NCBI GenBank assembly: GCA_030683815.1
Contig: JAUXPJ010000020.1
Location: 1-64,000 of the forward strand
DNA length: 64,000 bases
DNA from: Flavobacteriaceae bacterium
Lineage (GTDB): Bacteria; Bacteroidota; Bacteroidia; Flavobacteriales; Flavobacteriaceae
Direction of reading: 5' to 3'
Shown here piece by piece: positions 33,442 through 63,626 of the stretch (positions within the stretch are counted from its first letter, which is position 1; each line of letters opens with the position of its first letter). A model generated the notes under the pieces. The model was not told where the DNA came from and did no database searches. It saw only the letters and a program-made list of their open reading frames with translations. Made by a program: the position numbers and the translations under genes.

Positions 33442-33508
33442 TGTGTGAATTATGCAACTTATCCTTAAAGTTATGTAACACTTTTATTTTTTATAGTACG
33501 CAACTTTG
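33442..33508 (+). promoter_or_regulatory. Stress-regulon operator plus -7 box, copy 1 (33557 gene)
   Basis: A 40-bp element (33442-33481) begins TGTGTGAAT, has ATGCAAC and TTATGTAAC half-sites 21 bp apart, and lies 23 bp before TTTG (33505-33508), the end of the -7 box. There is no separate TTTG at -33; the element takes that place. Confidence 0.85.
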
Positions 33509-33556
33509 TATAGATCTCTTAAATAGAGAAATCGATATAATTTAAAATCAGAAAAA

Positions 33557-34012
33557 ATGAAAACTTTAAAATTAATCGTTATCGGAATAGTCTTGTTCCT
33601 TGCAAACAATCTGCAGGCGCAAGTTTCAGTGAATATTAATATTGGGTCGCCTCCGCAGTGGGGTCCTGTCGGATATACTGATGTGCGATATTACTATCTG
33701 CCAGATGTAGAGGCCTATTACGATGTGCAAACCGCTATGTTTATTTATTATGTCGGAGGAACTTGGATTCATAGAACATATCTTCCTACGCGATACAGAA
33801 ATTATGATTTGTACAGCGGATATAAAGTGGTGATGGCAGATTATCACGGTAACACTCCTTACGTTCATTTTAAAGATTACAAAATGAAATATGCAAAAGG
33901 ATACCGAGCTAACGGACAAAAAACTATCGGTATGAAACCAACTAAAGGAGATAATCACTCAAAAATGAATATGAAAGGAAGCTCCAAGGGAAAATCCAAT
34001 AAAAAGAATTAG
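33557..34012 (+). CDS. Secreted hypothetical protein, 151 residues
   Basis: Signal peptide MKTLKLIVIGIVLFLANNLQAQ, then a Tyr/Pro-rich domain (GPVGYTDVRYYYLPDVEAYYDVQTAMFIYYVGGTW) and a basic, Gly/Lys/Met-rich tail. The YYYLPDVEAYYDV pattern is a recurrent flavobacterial motif of unknown function. It is under the shared 40-bp operator, so it is probably a stress-induced envelope protein. The promoter leaves a leader of about 40 nt. Confidence 0.75.
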   Translation: MKTLKLIVIGIVLFLANNLQAQVSVNINIGSPPQWGPVGYTDVRYYYLPDVEAYYDVQTAMFIYYVGGTWIHRTYLPTRYRNYDLYSGYKVVMADYHGNTPYVHFKDYKMKYAKGYRANGQKTIGMKPTKGDNHSKMNMKGSSKGKSNKKN

Positions 34013-34256
34013 CCAGGAAAATAGTAAATAGTATAAAATTTTATACGGTTTAATGTGATTAAAAAAAATCATTTACGCCAAAAAGTAAATAAAATTACAC
34101 TGCCTAAGTCAACACTCTAATAGAAAGTTGGCAAGAGCAGTGTATTTATTAAATAATTAATTCCCTATATGACATTAAAAATTAAAAATCTGTTCAAACC
34201 TAAATGCTTCACTATAAGATGTTTTTTTTGTAACTTGTGAAAAAAAGAGCAATTAG

Positions 34257-34871
34257 TTGAAGTTATATATCAAATATATGGTGAGCAACCGCTGTAAAAT
34301 GGTGGTGAAAGATGCCTTAAAAAAACTTGGACTGCATTTTACCCCGGTTGATTTAGGCGAAGTAGAGATTATGGAAAATATTTCTGATGAAGAAAGAAAT
34401 CTGCTTAATGAAGAGTTACTCAAATCAGGTCTTGAATTGATGGATGATAAAAGAGCGATACTGATTGAAAAAATAAAAAATACAGTTATAGAAATGGTTC
34501 ATAATAATACAGAAGAAACAATCAAAACAAAATTTTCTTGTTTTTTAAGCGAAAAATTAAATCATGATTATACCTATCTGGCAAATCTATTTTCAGAAGT
34601 GCAAGGAACTACAATTGAACAATTCATTATCTTTCATAAAATTGAACGGATAAAAGAATTGATGATTTATGATGAGCTGAGCATTACAGAAATTGCGTGG
34701 AAAATGAATTACAGCAGCGTGGCACATTTATCCAATCAATTTAAAAAAGTTACCGGACTTTCCCCGTCTCATTTTAAACAATTGAAAGATAAAAGGCGAA
34801 GTCCGATTGAAGAAATTGGAAATTTGAGAAATGCCCCTCGACCTCGCTCGGGGTACAGAAGTGAGAAATAA
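34257..34871 (+). CDS. AraC-family transcriptional regulator with HMA-like N-terminus
   Basis: 204 residues. I use the TTG start at 34257 because it gives MKLYIKYMVSNRCKMVVKDAL, the N-terminus expected in this flavobacterial family. The C-terminal AraC HTH is intact (LANLFSEVQGTTIEQFIIFHKIERIKELM...SITEIAWKMNYSSVAHLSNQFKKVTGLSPSHFK). In relatives the N-terminal segment has a CxxC metal-like site (recalled); here the first Cys is Ser. The last residues (NAPRPRSGYRSEK) come from a short DNA repeat. It is a candidate activator of the shared 40-bp operators (inference). A hybrid kinase gene follows after 54 bp. Confidence 0.82.
   Translation: MKLYIKYMVSNRCKMVVKDALKKLGLHFTPVDLGEVEIMENISDEERNLLNEELLKSGLELMDDKRAILIEKIKNTVIEMVHNNTEETIKTKFSCFLSEKLNHDYTYLANLFSEVQGTTIEQFIIFHKIERIKELMIYDELSITEIAWKMNYSSVAHLSNQFKKVTGLSPSHFKQLKDKRRSPIEEIGNLRNAPRPRSGYRSEK
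34833..34856 (+). repeat. Short repeat forming the 3' end of the AraC-type gene
   Basis: CCTCGACCTCGCTCGGGG at 34835-34852 belongs to the same palindromic family as 32466-32530 and the sucA insert. It encodes APRPRSGYR at the C-terminus. Confidence 0.5.
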
Positions 34872-34925
34872 AATTTTTCTAAATACTCAATACTAGTAAA
34901 TAAATCAAATTTGAAAGATTAGCAT

Positions 34926-37502
34926 ATGACTAAAATAAATAAATCAGATAAAGCAGCGTTATTGATGGCTAACAATGAACTTGTCTTTCAAAATAAAGAG
35001 AAAGAAAAACGGGCAGAAGAGTTAATCATTGCCAACAAAGAACTTATTTTTCAAAATAAAGAGAAAGAGAAACGGGCGGCAGAATTAATCATCGCCAATA
35101 AAGAACTTGCTTTTCAAAACGAAGAGAAAGAAAAACGGGCAGCAGAATTAATCATCGCCAATAAAGAACTGACATTTCAAAATAAAGAGAAAGAAAAAAG
35201 AGCAGAAGAGTTAATCATTGCCAACAAAGAACTGGCTTTTCAAAATGAGGAGAAAGAAAAGCGGGCAGCAGAGTTAGTCATTGCCAACAAAGAATTGGTA
35301 TTTCAAAGTATATTGAAAGAAAAAAGAGCATCAGAAAAAGAAAAGCGGGCAGCAGAGTTAGTCATTGCCAACAAAGAACTGGCATTTCAAACCAAAGAGA
35401 AAGAAAAACGGGCGGCAGAGTTAGTCATTGCAGACATAGAACTTGATTTTCAGAACAAAGAGAAAGAAAAACGGGAAATTGCCAATAAAGAACTGGAAGC
35501 GTTCAGCTATTCTCTAAAATTAGCGTCTCAATATTCGCTCAGCTTAATTGAAGCAAGTCTTGACCCCTTGGTAACCATCAGTACCGAAGGAAAGATTACA
35601 GATATGAATGAAGCTTTGTCAACCATTACTGGCTTGGCGCGCGAACAACTTACAGGTTCCGACTTCTTCGATTATTTTACCGAACCACAAAAGGCGCGTG
35701 AAGTATATCAGGAAGTATTCGCAAAAGGATTTGTTGCTGATTATCCATTGACACTCCACCATAAGGATGGAAAACTTACAGATGTGTTATTCAACGGATC
35801 GGTTTATAAAGATGATGGCGGAAATGTAATGGGTGTGGTAATTGTTGCCCGCGATGTTACCGACCAAAAAAGAATTGCAACAGAATTAAACGAAGCAATC
35901 GTATTTGCCGAGTTGGCAACGGGTATTGCTGAAACAGCACAAAAAAAAGCCGAAAGTGCCACATTAATTGCAGAAGATGCCGTAAAAGCAAAACAGCAAT
36001 TTTTGTCAAATATGAGTCATGAAATTCGCACACCAATGAATGCAATCATCGGATTTACAAAAGTGCTGTTGAAAACAGAATTGACACCAAGACAAAAAGA
36101 ATATTTACAAGCCATAAAATTAAGTGGAGATGCCTTAATTGTACTCATTAATGACATACTCGATTTGGCAAAAGTAGATGCCGGAAAAATGACCTTTGAA
36201 CAAGTGCCTTTCAAAATGTCAGTATCCATTGCTGCCATGCTCCATTTGTTCGAAACAAAAATTCAGGAAAAAAACTTAGAGTTGGTTACCCTTTATGATC
36301 CAAAAATCCCAGAGGTATTAGTGGGCGACCCCGTACGTTTACATCAGATTATTTTAAATTTGGTGAGCAATGCGGTTAAGTTTACCAACCAAGGAAAAAT
36401 TACCGTAAATGTTCGCTTACTGAAAGAAGATGATGAGAATGTAAGCATCGAATTTGCAGTTACAGATACCGGAATTGGAATAGCAGAAGAAAAAATAGCT
36501 TCCATTTTTGAAAACTTTCAGCAAGCATCCAGCATTACTTCAAGATTATATGGAGGAACCGGTTTGGGTTTAGCCATTGTTAAACAATTAGTAGAACCGC
36601 AAGGAGGTAGCATCAGTGTAAAAAGTAAAGTTGAAGAGGGCTCTACCTTTAGTTTTATGTTAAATTTTAAAAAAACTACGGAAGAAGCGGCCTTAGATAC
36701 AGAAATATTGGAATTGGATACCGAAATGGATAATATAAAAGTTTTGGTGGTAGAAGACATAGCGCTGAATCAATTATTGATGAGAACTTTATTAGATGAT
36801 TTCGGATTTGAATGTGTTATTGCTTCCAACGGAAAAATTGCCATCGAAAAATTAGAAAACGATATTTTTGATATTATTTTGATGGATTTGCAGATGCCCG
36901 AAATGAATGGGTTTGAAGCAACAGACTACATTCGCAATACCATGAATACTAAAATACCCATCATCGCTTTAACCGCCGATGTAACCACGGTTGATTTAGC
37001 AAAATGCAAAGCCGTTGGTATGAATGATTATGTAGCTAAGCCCGTTGACGAACGATTATTGTACAGTAAAATAGTGGGACTTGTAAAAAAAACAACATTA
37101 ATTAACGAACTGGAAGTGGATGTAAATAATTTAATAGAAAAAGTTAAATACACCGATTTGACCTATTTAATCCACCGAACAAAATCGAATCCAATATTGA
37201 TGATGGAAATGATTGCTCTTTATTTAGAACAAACACCCCCATTAATCAACACCATGAAACAAAGTTTGAGAGAAAAAGATTGGGTTTCATTGTACGGTGC
37301 AGTTCATAAAATGATACCATCCTTTGCCATTATGGGGATGAGTACAGAATTTGAAAATATGGCAAAGAAAGTGCAAGAATTTGCAAGCACACAACAACAA
37401 ACCGATGGAATACCAAACTTGGTGCGGCAGCTTGAGAATGTTTGTACACAGGCATGTATAGAATTAAAAGAAGAGTTTAACACCATGAAAAACAACTTAT
37501 GA
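34926..37502 (+). CDS. Hybrid sensor histidine kinase with tandem coiled-coil repeats
   Basis: 858 residues, no membrane segment. Residues about 18-190 are eight units of a 21-residue repeat (E-L-x-F-Q-N-x-E-K-E-K-R-A-x-E-L-I-I-A-N-K); unit 6 has a 7-residue insert and unit 8 is shortened. Then a PAS domain (about 205-315), HisKA with His365 (SHEIRTPMN), HATPase with NLVSNAVKF, a receiver domain with Asp654 (MDLQMP), and a C-terminal Hpt-like domain with His794. It is a cytosolic phosphorelay kinase. The stop overlaps the following response regulator by 4 bp. Signal unknown. Confidence 0.9.
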   Translation: MTKINKSDKAALLMANNELVFQNKEKEKRAEELIIANKELIFQNKEKEKRAAELIIANKELAFQNEEKEKRAAELIIANKELTFQNKEKEKRAEELIIANKELAFQNEEKEKRAAELVIANKELVFQSILKEKRASEKEKRAAELVIANKELAFQTKEKEKRAAELVIADIELDFQNKEKEKREIANKELEAFSYSLKLASQYSLSLIEASLDPLVTISTEGKITDMNEALSTITGLAREQLTGSDFFDYFTEPQKAREVYQEVFAKGFVADYPLTLHHKDGKLTDVLFNGSVYKDDGGNVMGVVIVARDVTDQKRIATELNEAIVFAELATGIAETAQKKAESATLIAEDAVKAKQQFLSNMSHEIRTPMNAIIGFTKVLLKTELTPRQKEYLQAIKLSGDALIVLINDILDLAKVDAGKMTFEQVPFKMSVSIAAMLHLFETKIQEKNLELVTLYDPKIPEVLVGDPVRLHQIILNLVSNAVKFTNQGKITVNVRLLKEDDENVSIEFAVTDTGIGIAEEKIASIFENFQQASSITSRLYGGTGLGLAIVKQLVEPQGGSISVKSKVEEGSTFSFMLNFKKTTEEAALDTEILELDTEMDNIKVLVVEDIALNQLLMRTLLDDFGFECVIASNGKIAIEKLENDIFDIILMDLQMPEMNGFEATDYIRNTMNTKIPIIALTADVTTVDLAKCKAVGMNDYVAKPVDERLLYSKIVGLVKKTTLINELEVDVNNLIEKVKYTDLTYLIHRTKSNPILMMEMIALYLEQTPPLINTMKQSLREKDWVSLYGAVHKMIPSFAIMGMSTEFENMAKKVQEFASTQQQTDGIPNLVRQLENVCTQACIELKEEFNTMKNNL
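34974..35500 (+). repeat. 63-bp in-frame tandem repeats (eight units)
   Basis: The repeats encode the 21-residue coiled-coil units of the hybrid kinase. Neighbouring units differ by only a few bases. The same unit occurs in the second kinase at about 50100-50830, which suggests duplication and homogenisation. Confidence 0.85.
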
Positions 37503-37933
37503 TAAACGGAAATAAAGTAAAACTGTTTTTAGTAGATGATGATGCCGTGTTTTTAAAATCCTTGGAAATAGATTTTTTGCAACATGCCGACTTTAGCATC
37601 GAAACCTTTGCTACAGGTGAACTTTGCTTGGCGCAGTTATCACAAAACCCGGATGTAATCATTTTAGATTATTATCTGGACGGAATTGTTAAAACCGCGA
37701 TGAACGGGATGTCAACATTGGATAAAATAAAAGCGTTTAATCCGGATATTCCGGTCATAATGCTTTCATCTCAAGATAAAATTGAGGTAGCAATCAGCTG
37801 TATGCATCACTTAGCTTTTGATTATGTGGTAAAAAGCGAAACCGCTTTTGTACGCTTACAAAAAATTATCACCACCATTTTCAAATACAAAAAAATGGAA
37901 AAAGAATTGAAATGGTATATGGATACGATGTAG
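37499..37933 (+). CDS. Single-domain response regulator
   Basis: 144 residues, receiver domain only. FLVDDDAVFLKSLEIDFL holds the acidic pocket, VIILDYYLDG the phosphoryl-accepting Asp, MLSSQ the Thr/Ser position and VVKSETAF the lysine. There is no output domain, so it probably works in a phosphorelay with the overlapping kinase or by protein contact. Confidence 0.88.
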   Translation: MINGNKVKLFLVDDDAVFLKSLEIDFLQHADFSIETFATGELCLAQLSQNPDVIILDYYLDGIVKTAMNGMSTLDKIKAFNPDIPVIMLSSQDKIEVAISCMHHLAFDYVVKSETAFVRLQKIITTIFKYKKMEKELKWYMDTM

Positions 37934-37998: not shown

Positions 37999-38027
37999 TA
38001 TCTTTGATAGTATCAAATGATAGTATC
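37999..38027 (+). promoter_or_regulatory. fic promoter with two palindromic operators
   Basis: TATCTTTG (-7 box, 37999-38006) is followed by GATAGTATC at 38006-38014 and again at 38019-38027, 13 bp apart. Each is a perfect palindrome around the central G. They lie just before the ATG at 38031, over the expected start of transcription, so they may be repressor sites. Confidence 0.6.
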
Positions 38028-38030
38028 GCA

Positions 38031-39002
38031 ATGAAACCACCTTACGAGATTACTTCGAATATATTAAAGTTAATAACTTCCATTTCAGAAAAAATAGGAG
38101 CAGTTAATGCCAGTTTCCTAAACAAACCATCACCAAAATTGAGGAAACAGAATAGAATCAAAACTATTCATTCTTCATTAAAAATTGAAGGAAACATATT
38201 AACCGAAGAACAAATTACTGCTATTTTAGAAAATAAAAGAGTAATTGGACCACAAAAAGATATTAAAGAAGTTTTAAATGCTATCGAAATTTATGAGAAT
38301 TTAAAACAATTGAATCCGTATAATGAGAAGTCATTTTTAAAAGCACATCAGACTTTAATGCACAACCTCCTTGAAAAAGCTGGTAAGTATAGAAATCAAG
38401 GAGTAGGAATTGTGAAAGGATCAAAAGTTGAGCATTTAGCGCCTCCTTTCGAAAATGTTCCGTTTTTAATGAAGAACCTTTTTGATTACTTGAAAAATTC
38501 AGACGAAATTGAATTAATCAAAAGTTGCGTGTTTCATTATGAAATGGAATTTATTCATCCATTTTTAGATGGAAACGGTAGAATGGGACGCTTATGGCAA
38601 ACTTTGATTTTAATGGAAAAATATCCCGTGTTTGAATATTTGCCTTTTGAGACACTTATCAGCAAAGACCAGAAGAAATATTATAGGGCATTATCAGAAA
38701 GTGACAAATCTGGAAATTCAACAAAATTCATAGCATATATGTTGAACGTTATTGATATTTCACTAAGTGAATTATTAAAATTTAATAACCGAACGCTTAA
38801 TGAAAAAGACAGACTTGAATATTTCATTGCTCTCAATAAAATTGAATTTACAAGAAAGGATTATATGGATATTTTCAAAGATATTTCTTCTGCCACAGCT
38901 AGTAGAGATCTAAAAAATGGAGTAGCAATTAATCTATTTGAAAAAATAGGAGAAAAGAACAAAACAAAATACAGATTAGTAACTGGGCACAACAATGGTT
39001 AA
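38031..39002 (+). CDS. Fic-family protein
   Basis: 323 residues. The Fic core HPFLDGNGRMGRLW (HxFxDGNGRxxR) is complete, so AMP or UMP transfer is possible. An inhibitory motif of the SxxxE(G/N) type, SLKIEGN, lies upstream of the core at about residue 50, as in class II Fic proteins. The C-terminal part ends in a winged-helix-like segment. I choose the ATG at 38031; the TTG at 38004 lies inside the -7 box. Confidence 0.88.
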   Translation: MKPPYEITSNILKLITSISEKIGAVNASFLNKPSPKLRKQNRIKTIHSSLKIEGNILTEEQITAILENKRVIGPQKDIKEVLNAIEIYENLKQLNPYNEKSFLKAHQTLMHNLLEKAGKYRNQGVGIVKGSKVEHLAPPFENVPFLMKNLFDYLKNSDEIELIKSCVFHYEMEFIHPFLDGNGRMGRLWQTLILMEKYPVFEYLPFETLISKDQKKYYRALSESDKSGNSTKFIAYMLNVIDISLSELLKFNNRTLNEKDRLEYFIALNKIEFTRKDYMDIFKDISSATASRDLKNGVAINLFEKIGEKNKTKYRLVTGHNNG

Positions 39003-41496: not shown

Positions 41497-42240
41497 TTAG
41501 TTCTTCTTGGAAATTACTTTTACTTCAGCCGCTTTTTTTTCTTCAGCGTCTTTTTTCTTTTTTTCTGCTTCTTTTTCTTTCTTATTAAAATAACCTTTTA
41601 ATAGGAAATTATGTTTGGCGGCTTCCATATTTTCATCTAATCCTTTGCTGCTTCTTTTAAGATTTAACATTGTCTGATTAAAATTTTCAGCAATGGTTGT
41701 ATCCTGAATTAAACGGCCAAGTGTTCCTTGTCCACTGTTTATTTTAAACATAATTTCTGCAAGTTGCTGTGAAATAATTTCTGCATTTCCTGCTGTTATC
41801 TGCAAACTTGCTATAATAGCATCTGTTTCAACCGGTTCTATTGACATAAGACTTTGTCCTGCTTTTACCAAAAGTGCATCAGCACTTCCTTGCGTAATAA
41901 TTAAAAGTCGGTCACCAATCAATCCTTCAGAACCAATGGCCACTTCACTGTTGGCTTTAATAAATTGCTTTACATCTTTTTTAATCAACATATTAACCCG
42001 CACTGTTGAATCATTAATGATGTTGATGTTATCAACAGTTCCAACATTTATTCCGGAGAAACGGACGTTACTCCCAACCTGCAATCCGCTTACATTATTA
42101 AAAGTGGTGGTAAGTTTAAAAACAGGATCAAATAAGTTTTTTTGTTTTCCGATTAAAAAAATGCCGATTACAAAAAGTGTCAATCCTCCTGCAACAAAAA
42201 GTCCTAACCGTACTTTAAATTTGTGTGTATGTGTTTCCAT
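41497..42240 (-). CDS. mlaD: MlaD/MCE-family lipid transport protein
   Basis: 247 residues: one N-terminal transmembrane segment (LGLFVAGGLTLFVIGIFLI) and an MCE domain (FKLTTTFNNVSGLQVGSNVRFSGINVGTVDNI), then a helical tail ending in a Lys/Glu-rich stretch. It is the periplasmic substrate-binding subunit of a phospholipid ABC transporter. It is in an operon with the ATPase and permease upstream. Confidence 0.9.
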   Translation of the reverse strand: METHTHKFKVRLGLFVAGGLTLFVIGIFLIGKQKNLFDPVFKLTTTFNNVSGLQVGSNVRFSGINVGTVDNINIINDSTVRVNMLIKKDVKQFIKANSEVAIGSEGLIGDRLLIITQGSADALLVKAGQSLMSIEPVETDAIIASLQITAGNAEIISQQLAEIMFKINSGQGTLGRLIQDTTIAENFNQTMLNLKRSSKGLDENMEAAKHNFLLKGYFNKKEKEAEKKKKDAEEKKAAEVKVISKKN

Positions 42241-43991: not shown

Positions 43992-44039
43992 GGTATTTGT
44001 CCCAGAATGACCTAAAATTACTTCCCCATTGCATTTATA

Positions 44040-44106
44040 CAAATTTAAAGGTCTTTTCTAGCGAAGGTGTTACAAAACTTTTTAAATAACTTACATGATT
44101 CACACA
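44040..44106 (-). promoter_or_regulatory. Stress-regulon operator plus -7 box, copy 2 (mla operon)
   Basis: On the minus strand the 40-bp element (44106-44067) begins TGTGTGAAT with ATGTAAG and TTTGTAAC half-sites 21 bp apart. 23 bp later comes TTTG (44043-44040) within TAAATTTG. The same layout as the plus-strand copies, oriented to the mla operon. Confidence 0.85.
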
Positions 44107-44309: not shown

Positions 44310-44376
44310 TGTGTGAATCATGTAAGTTATTGCGGAAATTATGTAATACATTTTTTCTTTAAACACTTCACATTTG
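44310..44376 (+). promoter_or_regulatory. Stress-regulon operator plus -7 box, copy 3 (44555 gene)
   Basis: Element 44310-44349 begins TGTGTGAAT, with ATGTAAG and ATGTAAT half-sites. TTTG of the -7 box is at 44373-44376, again after 23 bp. The leader to the ATG is long, about 170 nt. Confidence 0.85.
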
Positions 44377-44554
44377 CCTTGTGGTTATGTTAATGATTAT
44401 TTAATAAAAAATCGTGAATAATACCCATAAAAATAGTGGAGACCAGAACCCACTTTAAAAACGGCTTGCTTGATTGTTTAAATCTTACATCATATTAAGG
44501 AAGGGTAGTATCAAAAAACCAAAGTATAAGAAACAATTTAAAGATTTAAAAAAC

Positions 44555-45166: not shown

Positions 45167-45394
45167 ATGCAAACAAGAAATTTAGGCGTCGCCATCATTA
45201 CAATTGGTATAATAATGATGATCTACACGGGCTTCAATTATATAACCATTGTAAGAGCAGGTGACGAAGCGTCCATCAAAATAAACACAGAAAAAAATAA
45301 CCCAACCCAATGGTGGTTGCCCATTGTTGGTTTAGTACTTATTGTTGGTGGGATTAAAGTAGTTGTTGATAACGAAAAAAATAGCTTAAATTAA
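45167..45394 (+). CDS. Small two-helix membrane protein, 75 residues
   Basis: Two membrane segments: LGVAIITIGIIMMIYTGFNYI and WWLPIVGLVLIVGGIKVVV, with a short extra-membrane loop between (INTEKNNPTQ). It is a clear paralogue of the 48167 protein: MQT-(R/K)-x-LG, IxIGIxMMIYTGFN, GLVLIVGGI are shared. Probably in the same transcript as the 44555 barrel gene. Function unknown. Confidence 0.75.
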   Translation: MQTRNLGVAIITIGIIMMIYTGFNYITIVRAGDEASIKINTEKNNPTQWWLPIVGLVLIVGGIKVVVDNEKNSLN

Positions 45395-45599: not shown

Positions 45600-45666
45600 T
45601 GTGTGAATTTTGTAAATTTCAATTAGAATTATATAACTCATTTTTGAATGATATAAACCATCTTTG
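45600..45666 (+). promoter_or_regulatory. Stress-regulon operator plus -7 box, copy 4 (45738 gene)
   Basis: Element 45600-45639 begins TGTGTGAAT; half-sites are TTGTAAA and TATATAAC, the weakest pair of the set. TTTG lies at 45663-45666 after the fixed 23 bp. Confidence 0.8.
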
Positions 45667-46666: not shown

Positions 46667-46733
46667 TGTGTGAATGATGTAACTTATTTTCAAAATTGTG
46701 TAACGCTTTTCATATCTAAAGAATTTATCTTAG
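46667..46733 (+). promoter_or_regulatory. Stress-regulon operator plus -7 box, copy 5 (46782 gene)
   Basis: Element 46667-46706 begins TGTGTGAAT; half-sites ATGTAAC and TGTGTAAC are 21 bp apart. The -7 element at 46730-46733 is TTAG rather than TTTG, at the usual 23 bp. Confidence 0.85.
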
Positions 46734-48421: not shown

Positions 48422-48488
48422 TGTGTGAATGATGTAACTTATAGCTAAAGTTGTGTAACACATAACATGTTAAAGAGACGCACCTTTG
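48422..48488 (+). promoter_or_regulatory. Stress-regulon operator plus -7 box, copy 6 (csbD operon)
   Basis: Element 48422-48461 begins TGTGTGAAT; half-sites ATGTAAC and TGTGTAAC. TTTG is at 48485-48488 after 23 bp. The leader to the csbD ATG is about 35 nt. Confidence 0.88.
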
Positions 48489-49973: not shown

Positions 49974-50009
49974 TCAATTATCAATAAAATAATTTTGTTT
50001 GCATCGGAT

Positions 50010-55400: not shown

Positions 55401-57471
55401 ATTTGAATTAAATAAAGAAAGAAATAGTTTAAAAATACAATCGAAGTCAGCTATGCCAAATGCGCCATTAGCGCTGGATTTCAGTAATTTCAAAATAGAA
55501 TCATTGAGCAGTATCACACAAAATAGCGATTGGGAAATGAGCGGGGAAATCAATGGAAAGGCATTGATAAAAAACCTGCATACGATTCCTGTTTTTACTG
55601 CTGATTTGACTATCGAAGATTTTACATTCAAAAAAGACACCGTCGGTATCATTAATATCAAAGTCGATAATGAAATTGCCAATATATACAATGCTGAAAT
55701 TTCAATTAGCGGTCAAGAAAATCAGGTCAATTTAAACGGAATATACAAAACCGGTGACAGTAGTTTTGATATGAATTTGAGTATTGAAAAATTGAACCTG
55801 AAAAGCATTCAAGGTTTCGCCATGAATCAATTAACAGAAAGCAGCGGTTTTTTTACCGGAGATTTCAAAATAACAGGAACTGCTTCTCAACCTAAAGTGA
55901 TGGGCGATTTACAATTCAACGGAATTGGATTTAAAGTAAGGCAACTCAATGCAAAATTCAAATCCATCAACGATAAAATTGTATTTACAGCCAATGCTGT
56001 TACATTCAATCATTTTATCATAAAAGATGAAAAAGACAACAAATTAGCCATCAACGGAAAAATTAACAGTCAGAATTTCAGCAATTTTGGTTTTGATTTG
56101 GCCATTGATGCCGCTAATTTTAAAGCCATAAATTCGAAGGCAAAAGACAATGATTTGTATTATGGCGAATTGTATTTGGACAATCATTTGCGCGTCAAAG
56201 GTGATTGGAATAATCCTATCGTTGATGGAAATATCAAAATTAACAAAGACGCAAAATTTACCATCGTTTTACCGCAAGAAGATCCATCAATTGCTGATAG
56301 GGAAGGTGTTGTAGAATTTATAGACCAAGACAATCCACTCTTAATTCAAACAATTGCTGCCAATGATGCTATCAGTAAAATTGTTGTAAAAGGCATTAAT
56401 GTATCGGTAAATATTGAAATTGATAAAGACGCAGAATTATCCTTAATTATTGATAAAGCCAATGGTGATTTTCTAAAATTAAAAGGAGAAGCCCAATTAA
56501 ATGGTGGTATTGATTCATCAGGAAAAACCACTTTAACAGGAAGATATGAGTTGACAGAAGGTAGTTATGAAATGAATTTTAGTGCTATTAAAAGGAAATT
56601 TGATATCAAAAAAGGAAGTTATATTCTTTGGACCGGTGAGCCAACAACGGCTGATATTAATATTACGGCAATTTATAAAACAGAAACTGCTCCAATAGAT
56701 TTAATAAATGACCAATTAGGAAATGTTACGGCTGAGGTTAGAAATACCTATAAACAGAAAATCCCTTTCGAAACTGTTTTAAAAATGAAAGGAGAATTGA
56801 TGAAGCCAAGTATCTCATTTGATATTATTTTGCCCGAAGGAAACAACAGCGTTTCTACAGAAATTATCAATGCCACTCAAGCAAAACTGGCACAATTGCG
56901 TCAACATCCTGATGAGCTTAACAAGCAGGTTTTTGCTTTGCTGTTATTGAATCGTTTTATTGGAGAAAATCCTTTTGCCAGTGAATCGGGTGGTACATCG
57001 GTTTCCACCTTAGCCAGAGAAAGTGCCAGTAAAATTTTATCGCAACAATTGAACAATCTGGCAGGAGATTTAATCAATGGAGTTGACATTAATTTTGATT
57101 TGAGTTCCTCGGAAGATTATACAACCGGACAACTCGAAAACAAAACCGATTTGAACGTGGGAATTTCTAAGAAATTACTAAACGATCGATTAAAAGTTAC
57201 TGTTGGAAGCAGTTTTGGGATTGAAGGTCCGCAACAAATAAATCAAAATACCCATAATATTGCCGGTGATGTTTCTTTGGATTATCAACTTTCAAAAGAT
57301 GGGAAATATAAACTGAGAGCATACAGAATCAACAAATATCAAGTGGCATTGCAAGGTGAAGTTGTAGAAACCGGCATCGCTTTTATAATTACTATTGATT
57401 ACAATAAATTTAAAGAATTATTACGCAGCGGTAAAGAACAAAAAAACTTAAAAAAGAAATCTGATGAATAA
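52489..57471 (+). CDS. tamB: TamB-like translocation/assembly module protein
   Basis: 1660 residues. N-terminal membrane anchor (IFLWTLSSVVALFLFLVLVI), a long repetitive beta-helical region (AsmA/TamB type) and a C-terminal DUF490 domain (about 1200-1640, with SGKTTLTGRYELTEGSYEMNFSAIKRKF). It bridges the inner and outer membranes and is linked with lipid transport and outer-membrane protein assembly. The start is TTG at 52489, the first in-frame start that includes the anchor. It overlaps tamL by 8 bp. Confidence 0.9.
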   Translation: MRKYLKKSLKIFLWTLSSVVALFLFLVLVIQIPSIQNFVKEKVVTYIVEKIHTKVTIDKIEIGLPKKIILEGFYIEDQKKDTLFAGEKLAVDISLFKLLNNKVEINSVQLKGVIVNINRDENAVFNFDYIIKAFTSPNKPKDDPVPLQFSVDKINLDRIKLKYTDAVSKNDFKLKLNHFETRLRTFDLEQMNFDIPTAEIDGLRLYLKQGLAQKSNETKAISQKNISVSDFKLKLGKIDLSKIDIYYENESTKLITKFLLQKTTLKFNTIDLKNQLLDIENIAVSDIKGNLVLGKLDKLIPKKEAVANEPNNWEINIKKTNFKQINFRFDDENTVALKKGIDYRHLNLQNLNFNADNLNYNPVSISGNINSFTVKDQSGLEIQSLKTDFFYGKKNTSLKKLYLKTPQTVLKDEIIIGYPSIEFLSENLGELDIKASLNNSKLGFKDILLFVPTLANTDPFKSDPNAILLINAKVSGKLKNIEIPNLEMSGIGTTKITASGKITGLPDVKKAYFDLVIKDFQSSSKDLNEFLPKETIPDAIQLPSQLNVKGTFKGTIDNFNTDMSLLSSFGDAKIKATFDQSSKNQEQYDVQTELDNFDFGKLIKNDSIGKITLKAHIKGIGLNPKTATATVNGTILKAGYNTYTYQNLNLDGKISDGLFHATADIKDPNLTFDLTISGSFKDQYPSGKLKLTIDSADFGKLNLYAEPLKLRGILEADIQSANLDFLNGKVTVHHITIATATDQFVLDSINVTAASTLEKNSLRWNSQFLKAEMNGKYKLTKIVSALKNSVAKYYDFNPSSPKKITEQQQFAFKIDIKSSPLLLKFIPELKSLEPINFTGRYNSVNDSIVLNGAIPKLIYGKNTISNAIIKVETKENTLRYSIVVDDIKNGQFQLPYTNISGKAANQLLEYAVQLKDLKDKERYLIAGTLKASNGNNEMSIDPKKLLLNYESWNIASDNVIRFGKNGIYANKFELNKERNSLKIQSKSAMPNAPLALDFSNFKIESLSSITQNSDWEMSGEINGKALIKNLHTIPVFTADLTIEDFTFKKDTVGIINIKVDNEIANIYNAEISISGQENQVNLNGIYKTGDSSFDMNLSIEKLNLKSIQGFAMNQLTESSGFFTGDFKITGTASQPKVMGDLQFNGIGFKVRQLNAKFKSINDKIVFTANAVTFNHFIIKDEKDNKLAINGKINSQNFSNFGFDLAIDAANFKAINSKAKDNDLYYGELYLDNHLRVKGDWNNPIVDGNIKINKDAKFTIVLPQEDPSIADREGVVEFIDQDNPLLIQTIAANDAISKIVVKGINVSVNIEIDKDAELSLIIDKANGDFLKLKGEAQLNGGIDSSGKTTLTGRYELTEGSYEMNFSAIKRKFDIKKGSYILWTGEPTTADINITAIYKTETAPIDLINDQLGNVTAEVRNTYKQKIPFETVLKMKGELMKPSISFDIILPEGNNSVSTEIINATQAKLAQLRQHPDELNKQVFALLLLNRFIGENPFASESGGTSVSTLARESASKILSQQLNNLAGDLINGVDINFDLSSSEDYTTGQLENKTDLNVGISKKLLNDRLKVTVGSSFGIEGPQQINQNTHNIAGDVSLDYQLSKDGKYKLRAYRINKYQVALQGEVVETGIAFIITIDYNKFKELLRSGKEQKNLKKKSDE

Positions 57472-59749
57472 AAATCATATACTGTATATTCTTTTTATAC
57501 TATTGTTTACGGCATCGTGTAGCAATACAAAATTTTTACCGGATGGTGAACTGCTTTATACGGGTGCAAAAGTAAAAATGGAAAGTTCGGGTACTTTAAA
57601 AAAAGAACACAAAGCATTAAAGCCCCAATTAGAGCAATTAATAAGACCAAAACCAAATTCAAAAATGCTTGGATTGAGACCAAAGTTGTACCTCTACAAT
57701 TTAGCGGGAACGCCAAAAAAAGAAAAAGGACTGCGCCATTGGTTAAAATTTAAAGTTGGTGAGCCACCCGTTTTATACAGTCAGGCAGATTTAGAATACA
57801 GCAAAAGTGTGTTACAGAATTTTACCGAAAACAATGGTTATTTCAACACACAAACTTCGGCAGTTTCTACCATCAACAAAAAAAGAGCAAAAGCTGTTTA
57901 TACGGTTAAACCGGCAAAACAATATATAATTCGTAACGTTATTTTTCCTGATGATTCATCCAATGTTGTAAAAGCTGTTTATGCTGCAAAACCGGAAAGT
58001 TTGTTGAAAAATAATCAAGGATATAGTCTTAATACGATTAAAGAAGAAAGAATCCGCATCGACACACGACTGAAAGAAAACGGTTTTTTTTACTTTAAGC
58101 CCGATTATCTAAAAGTACAAGTTGACAGTACCGTGGCAGATCATCAAGTAGATTTGATTGTAAAGGTAAAAAAAGAAACTCCTGAATTGGCTAAAATCCC
58201 ATTCAAAATCAATAAAATTATTGTTTACCCTAATTATTCAATCGGTTCCGACAGTATAAAATCGACGCTTGATGCTACTGAAAAATACAATGATTTTACC
58301 ATTATTGATGCTGAAAAATTGTTTAAACCGCAGATTTTTGATCGAACTTTATATTTCAAAAAAGGAGATTTCTACAATCGCACCAATCATAATCTATCAT
58401 TAAACCGATTGGTAAATTTGGGGACTTTCAAGTTTGTGAAAAATCAATTTAAAGTTTCTGATACCACAGGAAATTACTTGGATGCCTATTATTATCTCAC
58501 TGCTTTACCAAAAAAATCAATTCGCATTGAAGTTTTGGCAAAAACCAATTCTGCCAATTATACCGGAACCGAATTGAATGTAAACTGGAGCAACAGAAAC
58601 ACTTTTAGAGGTGCCGAATTACTTACTGTTACTGCTTTTGGCGGACTAGAAGTGCAGGTTTCAGGACTTAATGACGGTTTTAATGTTTACAGGATCGGTT
58701 CAGAAGCTAATTTGGTATGGCCAAGATTTATATCACCATTCCATCATCAATCTTCCGGTGGTTTTGTTCCAAAAACCAAGGCAACCGTAGGTTATGAATA
58801 CCAGAACAGAATCAAACTGTATTCGTTACAAACATTCAAAGCATCATTTGGTTATTTATGGAGAGAAAATGAACGGAAAGAACATCAATTGAGTGTTACA
58901 GAAATCACTTATGCGAGTCCGCAAAACGTAACAAATTTGTATCAAGAACAAATGACGGCCAATCCATCTCTTGGAAAAGTAATCGAAAAACAGTTAATTT
59001 TTGGACCAAGCTATTTCTATACATATACCAATACGATGGAAAAAAGGAAAATGAACACCTTCTACTATAAAGGAAGTGTATCCCTTTCCGGAACTATAAC
59101 CGGAGCAATTGCCGGTGCAAACAGTGAAAATCCTGTCAAAATTTTTGGTGTTCCGTTTAGCCAATTTATAAAAGCAGAAAGCGATTTCAGGCATTATTTA
59201 AAATTAGGAGATGATTCCCAATTGGCAAGCAGAATAATTGTTGGAGCAGGATTTGCTTACGGAAATTCAGAAGAATTGCCTTTTATGAAACAATTTTTTA
59301 TTGGTGGTACGAATAGTCTAAGAGCTTTCCGCGCACGTTCTATTGGTCCGGGAAGTTATGATGGTTCAGCGAACAGCAGTTCTTTTTTGGCAGATCAATC
59401 AGGAGATTTAAAACTGGAATTGAACACCGAATACAGAGCCAAGATTTACGGTCTTGTCAAAGGCGCATTGTTTATTGATGCCGGAAATATTTGGCTCATG
59501 AACGATAATCCGGAAAAACATGGCGCTCAATTTTCTAAAAAATTCTTAAACGAAATAGCGGTTGGAGCGGGAGTGGGACTCCGTTTTGATTTTTCATTTC
59601 TGATTCTTAGAACAGACCTCGCTTTTCCGATCAGAAAACCTTATTTACCTGATGGACAACGATGGGTTTTAGATCAAATTAATTTTGGCAACAGTTCGTG
59701 GCGCAAAGATAACCTGATTTTTAATCTTGCCATCGGTTATCCTTTTTAA
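57464..59749 (+). CDS. tamL: TamL, lipoprotein BamA/TamA-family outer-membrane protein
   Basis: 761 residues. The N-terminus MNKNHILYILFILLFTASCSNTKFLPDGE has a lipobox cysteine, as in the Bacteroidota TamL lipoprotein version of TamA. POTRA domains (about 40-330) and an Omp85 beta-barrel follow, with FIGGTNSLRAFRARSIGPG (the RGF-like L6 motif) near residue 615 and a C-terminal aromatic strand ending AIGYPF. It is in an operon with tamB. Confidence 0.93.
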   Translation: MNKNHILYILFILLFTASCSNTKFLPDGELLYTGAKVKMESSGTLKKEHKALKPQLEQLIRPKPNSKMLGLRPKLYLYNLAGTPKKEKGLRHWLKFKVGEPPVLYSQADLEYSKSVLQNFTENNGYFNTQTSAVSTINKKRAKAVYTVKPAKQYIIRNVIFPDDSSNVVKAVYAAKPESLLKNNQGYSLNTIKEERIRIDTRLKENGFFYFKPDYLKVQVDSTVADHQVDLIVKVKKETPELAKIPFKINKIIVYPNYSIGSDSIKSTLDATEKYNDFTIIDAEKLFKPQIFDRTLYFKKGDFYNRTNHNLSLNRLVNLGTFKFVKNQFKVSDTTGNYLDAYYYLTALPKKSIRIEVLAKTNSANYTGTELNVNWSNRNTFRGAELLTVTAFGGLEVQVSGLNDGFNVYRIGSEANLVWPRFISPFHHQSSGGFVPKTKATVGYEYQNRIKLYSLQTFKASFGYLWRENERKEHQLSVTEITYASPQNVTNLYQEQMTANPSLGKVIEKQLIFGPSYFYTYTNTMEKRKMNTFYYKGSVSLSGTITGAIAGANSENPVKIFGVPFSQFIKAESDFRHYLKLGDDSQLASRIIVGAGFAYGNSEELPFMKQFFIGGTNSLRAFRARSIGPGSYDGSANSSSFLADQSGDLKLELNTEYRAKIYGLVKGALFIDAGNIWLMNDNPEKHGAQFSKKFLNEIAVGAGVGLRFDFSFLILRTDLAFPIRKPYLPDGQRWVLDQINFGNSSWRKDNLIFNLAIGYPF

Positions 59750-59844: not shown

Positions 59845-61029
59845 TTATTTTGTTATCAAAGAATAAGATTGGCTAGGAGGAAATAATAAACTTAAAGCAT
59901 TAGGTTTTAACTTAAAATTGCATCCTTTATCAATTACTGAACCGTCTGGCAGTCTTTTGATTGGATAATCAAGAGTAATGGCGCCTATATCAATTAATAG
60001 CCCAAATTGATTTAACAAAGGTTTTCGGGTATGTTCAGCTGACTTAAATAAAAAATATTCTTTATTGTCTTCGAATTTTGATTCTGCTTTAATCCAGAAT
60101 GTTTCTTTGTGTTTTATAGCTAATGCGTCTTTTAAAACTTGCAACTCCCAAACCAAAAAATCTCCGATTTCTTTTCTATCTGAATTTTCAAATAAATAAT
60201 CCAACTCATAATCAGTTCTCAAAATCAAACCCTGAGCATTTCTACCAGTTCCTCTAATTGTATTATACAATCTAAATATTCCACTTTCCCAATATCCAAA
60301 AGTATCAAGAATTTCAATTCTACTTTTAAACTTACTCAATTCCCAATTAGGCGTTTTCCCAAAGAGACCTTTTCTTGTTCCTTTATTTTCTCTTGCTGAT
60401 TTTAGTTCGATGCCTTTATAGTCAGGCGTCTTAGATGAATTCATTTTTATATCAAGCAGATGTTCTAAAGTTCGACCTATTGAAGTGTCTGCTTGCAATA
60501 AAGCAGGAATAAATCCTCTTGAAGCTAATTCTTTTAATTTGAATAATAATTCATCCGCAACTTCATTGGAGATATGGTTGATTTCATTGACTAATTCTTG
60601 TAGTGGATTTAGAATCTTGGAATTTAACAGTTTATACAAATCAATTTGAGTTATGTTCAACACATATAATATTCCTTCAAATTCAATTATTCCAAGAATA
60701 TCATTAGCTTTCGAATAATTGCCTAATCCTTTGAACCAAATTCTAGGGTCTCCATTTTTTGTATTTGGACGATATAAAGAAGCAATTGAATCAACAAATT
60801 TATCAACCTCAATTAGTTTAGAAACTATTTGAACTTTACTTTCTTGTCCTTGATTTTGCAATCTAAAATCGTGTATATTTTTAGATTTCAAAAAATTTCG
60901 AACAGAACCGGTTGCATCCATTATTGATTTAATTAAACCTGTTTCTGTTGGTTCAATCAAACATAGTTCAATAGCGTTTTCGGTTAAAAGTTTTATTCTG
61001 TCAATTTCAATAAATGTAAGTTGTCGCAT
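59845..61029 (-). CDS. MvaI/BcnI-family restriction endonuclease
   Basis: 394 residues. Near residues 183-216 GRTLEHLLDIKMNSSKTPDYKGIELKSAR matches the MvaI/BcnI catalytic core, with Asp203 and Glu208-x-Lys210 as metal/catalytic residues. Related enzymes cut CCWGG or CCSGG as monomers. The N-terminal 180 residues are an extra domain of unknown role. It lies 6 bp downstream of the methyltransferase, forming one unit. Its recognition site cannot be read from sequence. Confidence 0.85.
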   Translation of the reverse strand: MRQLTFIEIDRIKLLTENAIELCLIEPTETGLIKSIMDATGSVRNFLKSKNIHDFRLQNQGQESKVQIVSKLIEVDKFVDSIASLYRPNTKNGDPRIWFKGLGNYSKANDILGIIEFEGILYVLNITQIDLYKLLNSKILNPLQELVNEINHISNEVADELLFKLKELASRGFIPALLQADTSIGRTLEHLLDIKMNSSKTPDYKGIELKSARENKGTRKGLFGKTPNWELSKFKSRIEILDTFGYWESGIFRLYNTIRGTGRNAQGLILRTDYELDYLFENSDRKEIGDFLVWELQVLKDALAIKHKETFWIKAESKFEDNKEYFLFKSAEHTRKPLLNQFGLLIDIGAITLDYPIKRLPDGSVIDKGCNFKLKPNALSLLFPPSQSYSLITK

Positions 61030-61035
61030 AAACTA

Positions 61036-63261
61036 TTATTGAATGTTCTTTAAAATCTCAAGTGCAATTGCTCTTGCCATTAGTGGAGGAACTGCATTTC
61101 CAACTAATGTAAATTGAGGAACTTCAAATTTACGTTTATTTCCGCCAGTTGAACGTTTTCCTTGAAAAACAAATGAATCATCAAATGATTGAAGTCTTGC
61201 CATTTCACGAACAGTCAAAGCTCTTGGGTTTGAATAATGAATATAATCGTCAGCAATAGTCATAATTGTTGAACTTTGTCCTTCAGGTTTTAGTACGGTA
61301 TAACTTCTTTTATCTGATTCTAAACCAATTTCTTTAAGATTCGACTTTGCAGATTCATAATTTCCAGATTTTAAAATAACATTTAATCTTTTAATTACAT
61401 CCTTATTTTGCTTGCTTGTTTTATGATTTTGTAATGGCGCAACTAAATGTGTTAATGCGTTTTGAAGTTCTTCAAAGTTCCTTACGTAAAAAGGATTTTT
61501 AGCATTCAAAAAACGACCATTTAATCTTCCTTTTTTTGACCATTCAGAATAACTTAATCCATTATTTTCATTGGGCTTTCCATCAATATTTCTTTTCTGA
61601 ATTAATGCTTTCATTTTTTCAGAAGAACCGTTGTATTGCGCTTTTAAATTAATTTTTTCATAATCAAATCTTTCGTCATCATTTCCAACAAAATCTAAAT
61701 CATAAATTGCCTCAAAAACATTTACTTTTTCATTATGTTTTACTGTTGCAGGAATATCATTTATAAGTTTTTGGTCTTTTCTACAACCAATAAACAAAAC
61801 TCTTTCACGGTTTTGAGGAACTCCATAGTTTGAGGCCAATGCTACAAAAGGTTGCTCAATATTATATAATCTAATTTTCGATAAAATCGTTTCAAATTCT
61901 TTCTCTTTATTTGCCTTTACAACAAAAGAATTTAATCCTTTTACGCATTCATCAAAAGAGTAATCAAATATTTCAAGGGCTGTAATAATTTGTTTTATAT
62001 CCTCTAAAAAGACGACATTTGGCTTCAAATTATTAAAAGCAGTATGTATTTTTTCAATAATCGTTTCAGATTCAATTGAAGTTAAAAATGAATCAAAATC
62101 AACAGCGAAAAAATCATTGTCTAAATTAGAAAATGCTTTTTCATTGATTACTTTTTTCCTAATATATTCAAGTTCTTTAACACGTTTCAAAAGATTAAAT
62201 CCGTGACGAATTGTGCTGATGTTTTTATCGGTTTTGCTTGTCTTATAATCAACAATTTTAGGAGTTAAAAGTCTAAATTTATTCTCTAAATTATTAATAT
62301 AATTGTTCTTTAGATTATATGATTCTTTATCTGTAGCTTTTTCAAATTGTAAACGTAAATTGTAACATTCTAAAATAAAAGATTGTTCAATTTCGACTTT
62401 TTTGAGTTGAGCAACAAAAAAAATAAGCTGACTAAATTCTTTTAAATCAACTATTGATCTAATTTCTTGAAGGATCATTTCCTTAATCTTGCCTTGCTCT
62501 TTTGTTAAAATCCCTTTGACATTTTCCATTACAAAATATTTGGGACGCAATTGTCTTATAACTTTTAAGTAATGTGCAAATAAATCATCTTTTTTATCAA
62601 ATTTTTTTCTTTTTCCAGCCAAACTAAAACTTTGACAAGGTGGACCACCACAAACAATATCAATTTCTTTATCTCCAATTTTCTTAAGAAAGTTATCTAA
62701 AAAATCTGGTTCGGTAATATCTTGTCGAAGAAATTCTGCATCTAAACCTAGTTGATAATTGTATCTTGCTAAATGGGTAAGTTCGCAATTTTCATTTATA
62801 TCGCTTCCAAGTCTAAAATCATAATATTTGTTGTCATATTCAGCTTGAAGAAAACCTTCGCTAAATCCGCCAGCACCTGCAAATAAGTCCACAAAAGTTA
62901 CTTTAGATTTATTTTCATATTCTGATGAAAGTTCTGAAACTATATTAATATCCGTATTTTCTCTTCGTCTATTTACTAAAGATGTTATTTTTTCTTTAAT
63001 TTTTTTATCAGTAAAATTAGAATGTAATTCCATTTCAAAATATTTCTCAACCTCGTGCTTTAAAAAAATTAAAAACTTATTTATTGATTTATGAGAATAT
63101 TCGGTATCCTTAACCAATTGATTTGAGTTATCCCAATCTTTCTTCATTATCTTTTCTCCAGTTGCAACTTTGATTTGCAAATCTTTTTGACGCAATACAA
63201 GATGAATCGGAAATCTTTTACTTTTATCTGCTTTATCGAGGTAGAATTTTACATTTATCAT
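61036..63261 (-). CDS. DNA cytosine-5 methyltransferase with integrase-like N-terminus
   Basis: 741 residues. Residues 1-75 (NVKFYLDKADKSKRFPIHLVLR...IMKKDW) resemble the arm-type DNA-binding segment of Bacteroidota tyrosine recombinases. C5 motifs are I (VDLFAGAGGFSEGF, 123-137), IV (GGPPCQSF, 205-212), VI (ENV, 246-248), VIII (QNRERV, 483-488) and X (VGNAVPP). About 210 residues (260-470) are inserted between VI and VIII. It protects against the adjacent nuclease. The upstream region holds ACGGACA-type direct repeats (63262-63300). Confidence 0.92.
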   Translation of the reverse strand: MINVKFYLDKADKSKRFPIHLVLRQKDLQIKVATGEKIMKKDWDNSNQLVKDTEYSHKSINKFLIFLKHEVEKYFEMELHSNFTDKKIKEKITSLVNRRRENTDINIVSELSSEYENKSKVTFVDLFAGAGGFSEGFLQAEYDNKYYDFRLGSDINENCELTHLARYNYQLGLDAEFLRQDITEPDFLDNFLKKIGDKEIDIVCGGPPCQSFSLAGKRKKFDKKDDLFAHYLKVIRQLRPKYFVMENVKGILTKEQGKIKEMILQEIRSIVDLKEFSQLIFFVAQLKKVEIEQSFILECYNLRLQFEKATDKESYNLKNNYINNLENKFRLLTPKIVDYKTSKTDKNISTIRHGFNLLKRVKELEYIRKKVINEKAFSNLDNDFFAVDFDSFLTSIESETIIEKIHTAFNNLKPNVVFLEDIKQIITALEIFDYSFDECVKGLNSFVVKANKEKEFETILSKIRLYNIEQPFVALASNYGVPQNRERVLFIGCRKDQKLINDIPATVKHNEKVNVFEAIYDLDFVGNDDERFDYEKINLKAQYNGSSEKMKALIQKRNIDGKPNENNGLSYSEWSKKGRLNGRFLNAKNPFYVRNFEELQNALTHLVAPLQNHKTSKQNKDVIKRLNVILKSGNYESAKSNLKEIGLESDKRSYTVLKPEGQSSTIMTIADDYIHYSNPRALTVREMARLQSFDDSFVFQGKRSTGGNKRKFEVPQFTLVGNAVPPLMARAIALEILKNIQ

Positions 63262-63304
63262 TTTGCGGACATTTTTACGGATACGGACAAATTTACGGAC
63301 AAAT
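63262..63304 (-). repeat. Short direct repeats upstream of the methyltransferase
   Basis: On the plus strand GCGGACATTTTTACGGATACGG and AATTTACGGACAAATT carry four near copies of TTACGGACA at about 11-14 bp intervals. They could bind the methyltransferase N-terminus or a controller; none is proven. Confidence 0.5.
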
Positions 63305-63428
63305 TCTAAATACGCAAGAAAAACCGAGATTATTTTCGAAAAGCTAGGAAATACTGGAATAAATTATAAGAACGATTAAAAACTGAAGGAAATGAACTGG
63401 TGACAAATAGTTACCAGTTGAAAATGGT

Positions 63429-63528
63429 ATTAAATTGACGGTAATATATTGAAAAAAAAATGTGATAAACATCTGATAGCTATCATAATAGTCTTTTATC
63501 TTTGATCTATATTCTTTAGTCTGGTTGA
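63429..63528 (+). repeat. Family B repeat, copy 10
   Basis: TTAAATTGACGGTAATATATTG, stem TGTGATA/TATCATA, AATAGTCTTTTATCTTTG, ATCTATATTCTTTAGTCTGGTT. The last copy in the window, just before the ytxH operator. Confidence 0.8.
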
Positions 63529-63559
63529 GACTTCTAAAAATGATTTTTTTGATAAAAAA

Positions 63560-63626
63560 TGTGTGAATAATGTAACTCTTTTTCGAAATTATGTAATACA
63601 AATCCGTATAGATAAAACCAACTTTG
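63560..63626 (+). promoter_or_regulatory. Stress-regulon operator plus -7 box, copy 7 (ytxH)
   Basis: Element 63560-63599 begins TGTGTGAAT; half-sites ATGTAAC and ATGTAAT. TTTG at 63623-63626 follows after 23 bp. Confidence 0.88.

Follow-up and report, generated by a model that had tools for sequence, protein, structure and literature searches.

The DNA analysed here, called the window below, is a stretch of 64,000 nucleotides (positions 1 to 64,000, forward strand) of contig JAUXPJ010000020.1, here C6, of a Flavobacteriaceae bacterium (assembly GCA_030683815.1). Between 33442 and 63626 it carries seven copies of a 40-bp element. They stand 5' of the genes of a secreted protein (33557), the mla operon, two outer-membrane barrels, a DUF6600 protein, CsbD with an sll1863-family protein, and YtxH. 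Element 1 is followed by the secreted protein gene, then by the genes of an AraC-type regulator (34257-34871), a histidine kinase (34926-37502) and a receiver protein (37499-37933). The initial annotation of this DNA had named no regulator; the AraC-type gene lies inside the interval it covered. In this study, we consider it highly likely, on sequence comparison, that the element is a tandem activator site for the AraC-type protein 34257-34871 and that it serves a general stress and envelope regulon.

Operator elements in the window and in the genome

All seven elements described in the initial annotation were present, with correct coordinates and strands; the 44067 given for element 2 is the low-coordinate end of an element that begins at 44106 on the minus strand. 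Every element starts with TGTGTGAAT. The half-sites are of the ATGTAAC type, with variants such as TGCAAC, TGTAAG, TGTAAA, TATAAC and TGTAAT, and they are 21 bp apart in all seven, as had been claimed. The -7 box likewise stood where it had been placed, 23 bp past the 40-bp element in each case (six TTTG, one TTAG). The seven elements and three strict-pattern matches could be aligned without gaps across 72 columns. The open reading frame (ORF) of mlaE is listed with a start at 44042, which falls in the -7 box, so the real start should be further in. According to the passages of PMC7366714 cited here, the sigma-A consensus consists of a -7 TAnnTTTG and a -33 TTTG, and in F. johnsoniae no -33 box could be identified. 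The geometry agrees with the initial claim that the element replaces the -33 TTTG, but the replacement itself is something we infer.

The window was scored with a matrix of 128 non-redundant sites from other genomes (the foreign matrix). The seven elements reached 36.8-50.3 bits and the next best place in the window -0.6 bits, and the best score among 30 first-order Markov randomisations of the window was 10.9 bits. The statement that such conservation is not due to chance is borne out by these scores.

The initial annotation had also suggested building a motif and scanning the whole genome. Profile R1, made from ten own-genome sites with the box included, returned 14 sites at E <= 1.2e-7, and the next match had an E-value of 0.02. 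Profile R2 covered the element without the box and was made from 90 of the 128 non-redundant foreign sites, none of them from this genome. It returned exactly the same 14 sites at E <= 2.3e-6 (next match 0.028), which supports the reading as an activator site. All 14 sites lie 5' of a gene; the motif is not equally frequent away from genes. Besides the seven in the window, the set contains four further sites on C6 (66283, 67005, 70943 and, on the minus strand, 75614) and one each on contigs C12, C13 and C17, and 11 of the 14 fall within 42 kb of C6 (33442 to 75614). The box was found at +23 in 12 sites (nine TTTG, two TTAG, one TTTA), at +22 in one and at +21 in one. The fixed spacing to the box is exact within the window and near-exact genome-wide. 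At two of the sites (C12:54122 and C13:74850, minus strand) a possible third half-site was seen about 20 bp past the second, near the -7 box.

Table 1. Positions of the operator elements, their promoter boxes and the associated genes
Feature	Position	Strand	Remarks
Operator element 1	33442..33481	+	5' of secreted protein 33557-34012, then AraC-type regulator gene
-7 box of element 1, TTTG	33505..33508	+	23 bp past element
Secreted protein	33557..34012	+	No Pfam match; first gene past element 1
Candidate cognate regulator	34257..34871	+	AraC-type helix-turn-helix (HTH); MVSNRC for MxCxxC; TTG start
Hybrid histidine kinase	34926..37502	+	Coiled repeats, PAS, HisKA, HATPase, receiver
Receiver protein	37499..37933	+	No DNA-binding domain by Pfam
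Operator element 2	44067..44106	-	5' of mla operon
-7 box of element 2, TTTG	44040..44043	-	23 bp past element
mla operon	MlaE 43071-44042; ATPase 42290-43063; MlaD 41497-42240		Predicted to be controlled from element 2
Operator element 3	44310..44349	+	5' of outer-membrane barrel, ORF 44474-45055, likely start about 44555
Box of element 3, TTTG	44373..44376	+	23 bp past element
Operator element 4	45600..45639	+	5' of barrel protein 45738-46358
Box of element 4, TTTG	45663..45666	+	23 bp past element
Operator element 5	46667..46706	+	5' of DUF6600 protein 46782-48023
Box of element 5, TTAG	46730..46733	+	23 bp past element
Operator element 6	48422..48461	+	5' of CsbD gene 48527-48715 and sll1863-family stress protein gene 48774-49208
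Box of element 6, TTTG	48485..48488	+	23 bp past element
Operator element 7	63560..63599	+	5' of YtxH gene 63667-63957
Box of element 7, TTTG	63623..63626	+	23 bp past element
Site on C6	C6:66283		5' of small membrane protein
Site on C6	C6:67005		5' of Ig-like/ice-binding lipoprotein
Site on C6	C6:70943		5' of paralog of secreted protein 33557
Site on C6	C6:75614	-	5' of lipocalin-like lipoprotein
Site on C12	C12:54122		5' of paralog of 45738 barrel
Site on C13	C13		5' of DUF4382 lipoprotein
Site on C17	C17		5' of OmpA protein

Several other genes of this region were recorded. The stretch 52489-59749 encodes a TamB-like giant protein and, behind it, an Omp85-family barrel; it lies in the island of sites and has no operator site of its own. 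The small membrane protein genes 45167-45394 and 48167-48385 are paralogs, both within the island; in another genome (locus L059) a site precedes a small protein similar to this pair. A gene for an MvaI/BcnI-type restriction endonuclease adjoins that of a C-5 cytosine methylase just 5' of element 7 (59845-63261). A Type I restriction-modification system (HsdM, BRO-N protein, HsdS, HsdR, with further genes between) occupies 23116-31786, and a Fic-domain protein gene (38004-39002) lies directly past the kinase and receiver genes.

Candidate regulator and its loci across Bacteroidota

A direct repeat of 21 bp suggests a binder of the AraC type, and the interval holds one such gene, 34257-34871. 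Its product belongs to the AraC/XylS family by Pfam (HTH_18, 59.3 bits against a cut-off of 33.6; HTH_AraC, 32.5 bits against 26.6). The structure was predicted with AlphaFold from 53 sequences, the window's own and 52 of 70 stop-free related proteins, and the model had a mean pLDDT of 81. It predicts a strand-helix-strand-strand-helix-strand fold in residues 1-63, followed by an AraC-type double HTH. The model was compared with known structures by Foldseek and then by VIA-align, the latter limited to the chains ranked by Foldseek. The predicted HTH part matched the AraC, MarA, Rob and ToxT domains with Z 8-12. Residues 1-65 matched copper chaperones and metal-binding domains with Z 7.1-7.7 (rmsd 2.1-2.6, 59-64 aligned), which is below the caution level of the tool (Z 8), and AcuB (up to 7.8) and ACT domains scored alike. 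The metal ligands of the MxCxxC motif are not kept: the window regulator has MVSNRC, and SxxC was found in 80 of 80 fetched loci, a tally in which one of the two scan patterns required KYMVS itself. In the model, the N-terminus may resemble a copper chaperone that has lost one metal cysteine. The two kinases of the region (34926-37502 and 49995-51515) contain long arrays of a repeat of about 20 residues (KEKRAAELIIANKELAFQNEE); several kinases of related loci start with similar repeats and others do not have them.

Related loci were collected by a contig scan with five relatives, and the best 80 of at least 377 confirmed loci were taken (1.30 Mb). They come from Flavobacterium, Lutibacter, Prolixibacteraceae, Chitinophagaceae, Emticicia and others, and their regulators are 70-86% identical, an identity that suggests horizontal transfer of the regulator between families. 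With a threshold of 16 bits, a matrix of the own sites (columns 1-42, with the box outside and the first two columns of C6:67005 set to N) found 211 sites, spread over 70 of the 80 loci, and the reversed matrix gave 1 match. Self-comparison of the profile gave a positive value at a shift of 21 bp alone among shifts 8-31. The midpoint of a site lay within a reading frame of >= 100 aa in 3 of 211 cases, compared with 3422 of 4220 random places (81%) in the same loci.

The box is likewise conserved in these loci. TTTG stood at +23 in 126 sites and at +22 in 21, and TTTA at +23 in 41 and at +22 in 11. Together, 199 of the 211 sites had TTTG or TTTA at +22/+23 (117 of 128 once near-copies were removed), and none of the 211 had TTTG at +18 to +21. 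An A three bases 5' of the box was kept in 88%, and most of the interval between element and box is not conserved. A spacing fixed in this way is what would be expected of an activator that touches RNA polymerase.

The same protein could also act as a repressor which blocks RNA polymerase at the -33 region until stress frees it. As in many repressor sites, the downstream half-site covers that region. However, repressors tolerate varied positions, in contrast to the spacing of 22-23 bp fixed in 199 of 211 sites, and tandem AraC sites beside the -35 region are an activator layout, as in araBAD. Repression therefore seems unlikely to us. A fixed spacing between two parts would also be seen if the element were itself the promoter of an alternative sigma factor, like a two-part promoter. 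This is very improbable: about 40 bp with an internal repeat of 21 bp far exceeds a -35 element, the downstream TTTG box is of the sigma-A consensus type in the cited passages of PMC7366714, and the six F. psychrophilum promoter motifs taken from PMC9723704 are unlike the element. The main text of PMC9723704 contains neither the word AraC nor the word CsbD. We give next to no credence to the idea that the sites are functionless copies left by recent DNA duplication. Some targets are indeed paralogous (those of 45600 and C12:54122, with similar flanks, and those of 33442 and C6:70943), but the sites stand 5' of unrelated genes, different families of the phylum share the motif, and little sequence is common to the 211 sites between element and box (columns 46-57).

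The predicted activator site is associated with the regulator gene. A site started 60-450 bp (median 95) 5' of the regulator in 53 of the 78 loci with enough sequence (54 sites); counted by the first downstream ORF, 53 sites in 52 loci precede the regulator. Of the 76 loci that offered 1 kb or more of sequence past the regulator, 66 had as next ORF a histidine kinase matching the core of the window kinase. Of these kinases, 65 were 69-82% identical to that core and one was 37% identical.

The other genes behind the sites were tallied for 100 of the 150 non-regulator downstream proteins of >= 50 aa, with target starts picked by script. Pfam assigned 18 to Ice_binding, 8 to receivers, 6 to OmpA, 6 to Ig-like domains, 5 to histidine kinases, 4 to CsbD, 3 to MlaE and 3 to BON. 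Individual targets confirmed by Pfam included ferritin-like (Dps type), Hsp20, DnaJ, Usp, YceI, SPFH, DUF5670 and YtxH proteins. The controls were 86 of 100 random genes of the same loci, after removal of 7 regulator genes, 6 long ORFs, several of which encode the neighbouring kinase, and L137:10779; four AraC-type proteins remained among them. Their top families were receivers (14) and kinases and PAS domains (3-6 each), and ice-binding, OmpA, CsbD, BON and MlaE were not among the 25 families listed for these 86 genes. Compared with the control genes, the targets are thus rich in stress and envelope genes. The initial annotation had spoken of an envelope-stress regulon. A promoter-linked operator set with envelope and stress genes was indeed found, but "envelope stress" is too narrow, because in related loci the element also stands 5' of ferritin-like (Dps type), Hsp20, DnaJ, Usp, YceI, BON, SPFH and ice-binding genes. 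"General stress and envelope" fits the target types better.

Paralogs and co-occurrence of site and regulator

Some paralogs keep the MxCxxC motif. In four of them (L191, L176, L052 and L057) a site lies just 3' of the paralog and 5' of a heavy-metal P-type ATPase gene. These loci probably represent a copper-responsive branch of the family. In L192 a site also stands 5' of a heavy-metal ATPase gene, with the nearest homolog among the matches listed about 4 kb off, and in L173 and L175, which have CxxC too, the next gene was by eye that of an Ig-like lipoprotein.

A further 17 loci with more distant SxxC paralogs (58-63% identical) were scored with the foreign matrix. Weaker sites were found in 16 of them (24 sites, 10.6-27.1 bits), with TTTG or TTTA at +22/+23 in 22 of the 24, and the reversed matrix gave none at 10 bits. 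Ten of the 24 sites fall at the stop codon of the regulator gene. Among the next genes are those of cupin-like proteins (Cupin_2 match below the cut-off), SPFH proteins and short proteins. Some of the short proteins look like CsbD by eye only, and the three that were tested had no Pfam match. In an unrooted tree of 35 rows, a branch (90/86, not starred) has all SxxC rows on the same side; the CxxC rows number just six, their branches are long, and the tree does not give the direction of change. The regulator may descend from a metal sensor; this is one reading of the structural model, helped by the CxxC paralogs beside heavy-metal ATPases, and is not proof.

Site and regulator were also searched separately in whole genomes. 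In the family search (299 genomes, with the R1 profile and the regulator protein), 18 other genomes had an R1 site, and in 7 of them a site was near a homolog among the matches listed. In G131 it lies 132 bp 5' of an 81%-identical ortholog, in G070 and G238 at the end of a regulator homolog, and in G226, G171, G121 and G042 no more than about 6 kb away from one. In the phylum search (395 genomes), 40 had an R2 site, 36 of them with a homolog at E <= 1e-40. When this genome was excluded, such a homolog was present in 35 of 39 genomes with a site and in 118 of the 355 that had none (Fisher p 5e-12, with kinship ignored). In G343, G394, G502, G517, G608, G432 and G672 a site was at the 3' end of a homolog or no more than 50 bp away from it.

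Several results weigh against the reading of the element as an activator site for the AraC-type protein. The 80 loci were picked by the regulator, and the sites in them speak for association there and not for absence elsewhere. Ten of the 80 had no site at 16 bits. In the window, no site was found directly 5' of this genome's own regulator gene, so the regulator would need read-through from element 1 over a 245-bp gap, or another promoter. Two of the four ATPase-locus sites are weak (7.0 bits in L052 and 13.5 in L057, against 10.9 for the best random 64-kb window). Pfam HMA (PF00403) had no match to the regulator even at E <= 1, unlike the ATPases beside the paralogs, which do match it, and the reading of the N-terminus as a metal domain is thus without Pfam support. 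In 11 of the 18 family-search genomes with a site (G047, G056, G061, G075, G097, G110, G133, G134, G172, G212 and G283), no homolog was near the site among the matches listed. In the phylum search, G309 and G314 have sites and homologs of only 33-35%, G481 (two sites, about 1e-7) and G600 (one weak site) have no homolog at E <= 1e-6, and G440 has a close homolog (1.5e-80) and no site at E <= 1e-3. The sites of G481 at L171 (G481:C28:10106) are strong ones; a missing contig or another binder may be behind them.

Another DNA-binding protein might bind the element, for example a response regulator of the LytTR type, which likewise recognises direct repeats spaced by about 21 bp; the AraC-type gene would then be merely a target. 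The genomes with sites and without a nearby or detectable homolog fit this view, as do the kinase and receiver protein linked to the regulator. The site 5' of the regulator gene in 53 loci makes the regulator a target in any case. However, the linked receiver protein has no Pfam DNA-binding domain, and site and regulator co-occur across the phylum. The ATPase loci share the AraC paralog and the site, and no kinase or receiver ORF was recognised by eye within the 3-kb stretch of the CxxC paralog loci; this speaks for the AraC protein itself as the binder. We consider another binder improbable, and the protein 34257-34871 is probably the one that operates the element.

Proposed mechanism and comparison with known systems

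We propose that two copies of the regulator would bind the direct half-sites GAATnATGTAAC and rTTATGTAAC, which are 21 bp or two helical turns apart. The downstream half-site occupies the place of the -33 box, and the bound protein could contact RNA polymerase there. It would thereby activate a sigma-A promoter which has only the -7 TTTG box, at the fixed distance of 22-23 bp. The frequent site 5' of the regulator's own gene may provide positive feedback. The regulator has no receiver domain, and the linked histidine kinase would probably be what passes a stress signal to it.

To our knowledge, no master regulator of the SigB or RpoS type is known in Bacteroidota. A wider idea, which we put forward tentatively and hold somewhat less probable than its opposite, is that the system is a widespread general stress response of this phylum, similar in function to SigB and RpoS. 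Its AraC-type activator may derive from a copper sensor that no longer has one of its metal ligands and is now controlled by a histidine kinase. The system may spread between families as operon and island, and any gene might join by gaining one 40-bp site correctly spaced from a TTTG box. The initial annotation knew of no description of such a regulon, and no account of the regulon or of its regulator was found in the openly licensed full-text literature, a scope outside which most subscription journals lie. Activation by AraC-type proteins is itself known; the predicted widespread regulon, its operator, the promoter geometry, the candidate AraC-type regulator and the linked kinase are new here. 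With a motif, a candidate regulator, a kinase and predicted targets, the coordination of stress and envelope functions in Bacteroidota could be approached by a small number of standard experiments in a culturable Flavobacterium such as F. glaciei DSM 19728 (L088), which has an ortholog of the regulator. The 40-bp element is a ready signature for annotating such regulons elsewhere, and how a metal sensor may gain another use could be studied in the paralogs next to heavy-metal ATPases.

The arrangement is closest in form to that of AraC/XylS activators. In E. coli, AraC uses a 21-bp direct repeat (araI1-araI2, class II activation). The predicted system likewise combines an AraC-type double HTH with two direct half-sites 21 bp apart beside the -33/-35 region; the profile repeats only at shift 21, and the half-sites keep a constant spacing to the core promoter, as in the class II layout. 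The predicted fold of the regulator matched the DNA-binding domain of AraC (2k9s; Z 9.2, rmsd 3.1, 107 aligned) and a class II complex (7bef; Z 8.9, rmsd 2.6, 106 aligned). It differs from AraC in its predicted ferredoxin-like, copper-chaperone-like N-terminus, where AraC has a cupin, in the Bacteroidota TTTG promoter, in a stress set in place of sugar use, and in the histidine kinase gene that follows. The predicted fold of this N-terminus matched copper chaperones and metal-binding domains (the class of CopZ, Atx1 and P-type ATPases), with ACT and AcuB domains fitting about as well, and some paralogs keep MxCxxC; the regulator class differs from copper chaperones and HMA domains in having SxxC for CxxC and no Pfam HMA match.

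The DNA-binding domain of the hybrid two-component systems (HTCS) of Bacteroides is also of the AraC type. As described in PMC11253607, they too join a histidine kinase and a DNA-binding domain in one system of Bacteroidota; no half-site spacing for HTCS was found in the passages cited. HTCS are single polypeptides, whereas here the regulator (34257-34871) lacks a receiver domain and the kinase (34926-37502) has an ORF of its own, which directly follows that of the regulator here and in 66 of 76 related loci. In its target types the predicted regulon is similar to the SigB regulon of Bacillus and Listeria and the RpoS regulon of E. coli, with which it shares CsbD, YtxH, Dps-type ferritin, BON (OsmY type), Usp and small membrane proteins. 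Unlike these, it would depend on a predicted AraC-type activator acting on sigma-A promoters and not on an alternative sigma factor.

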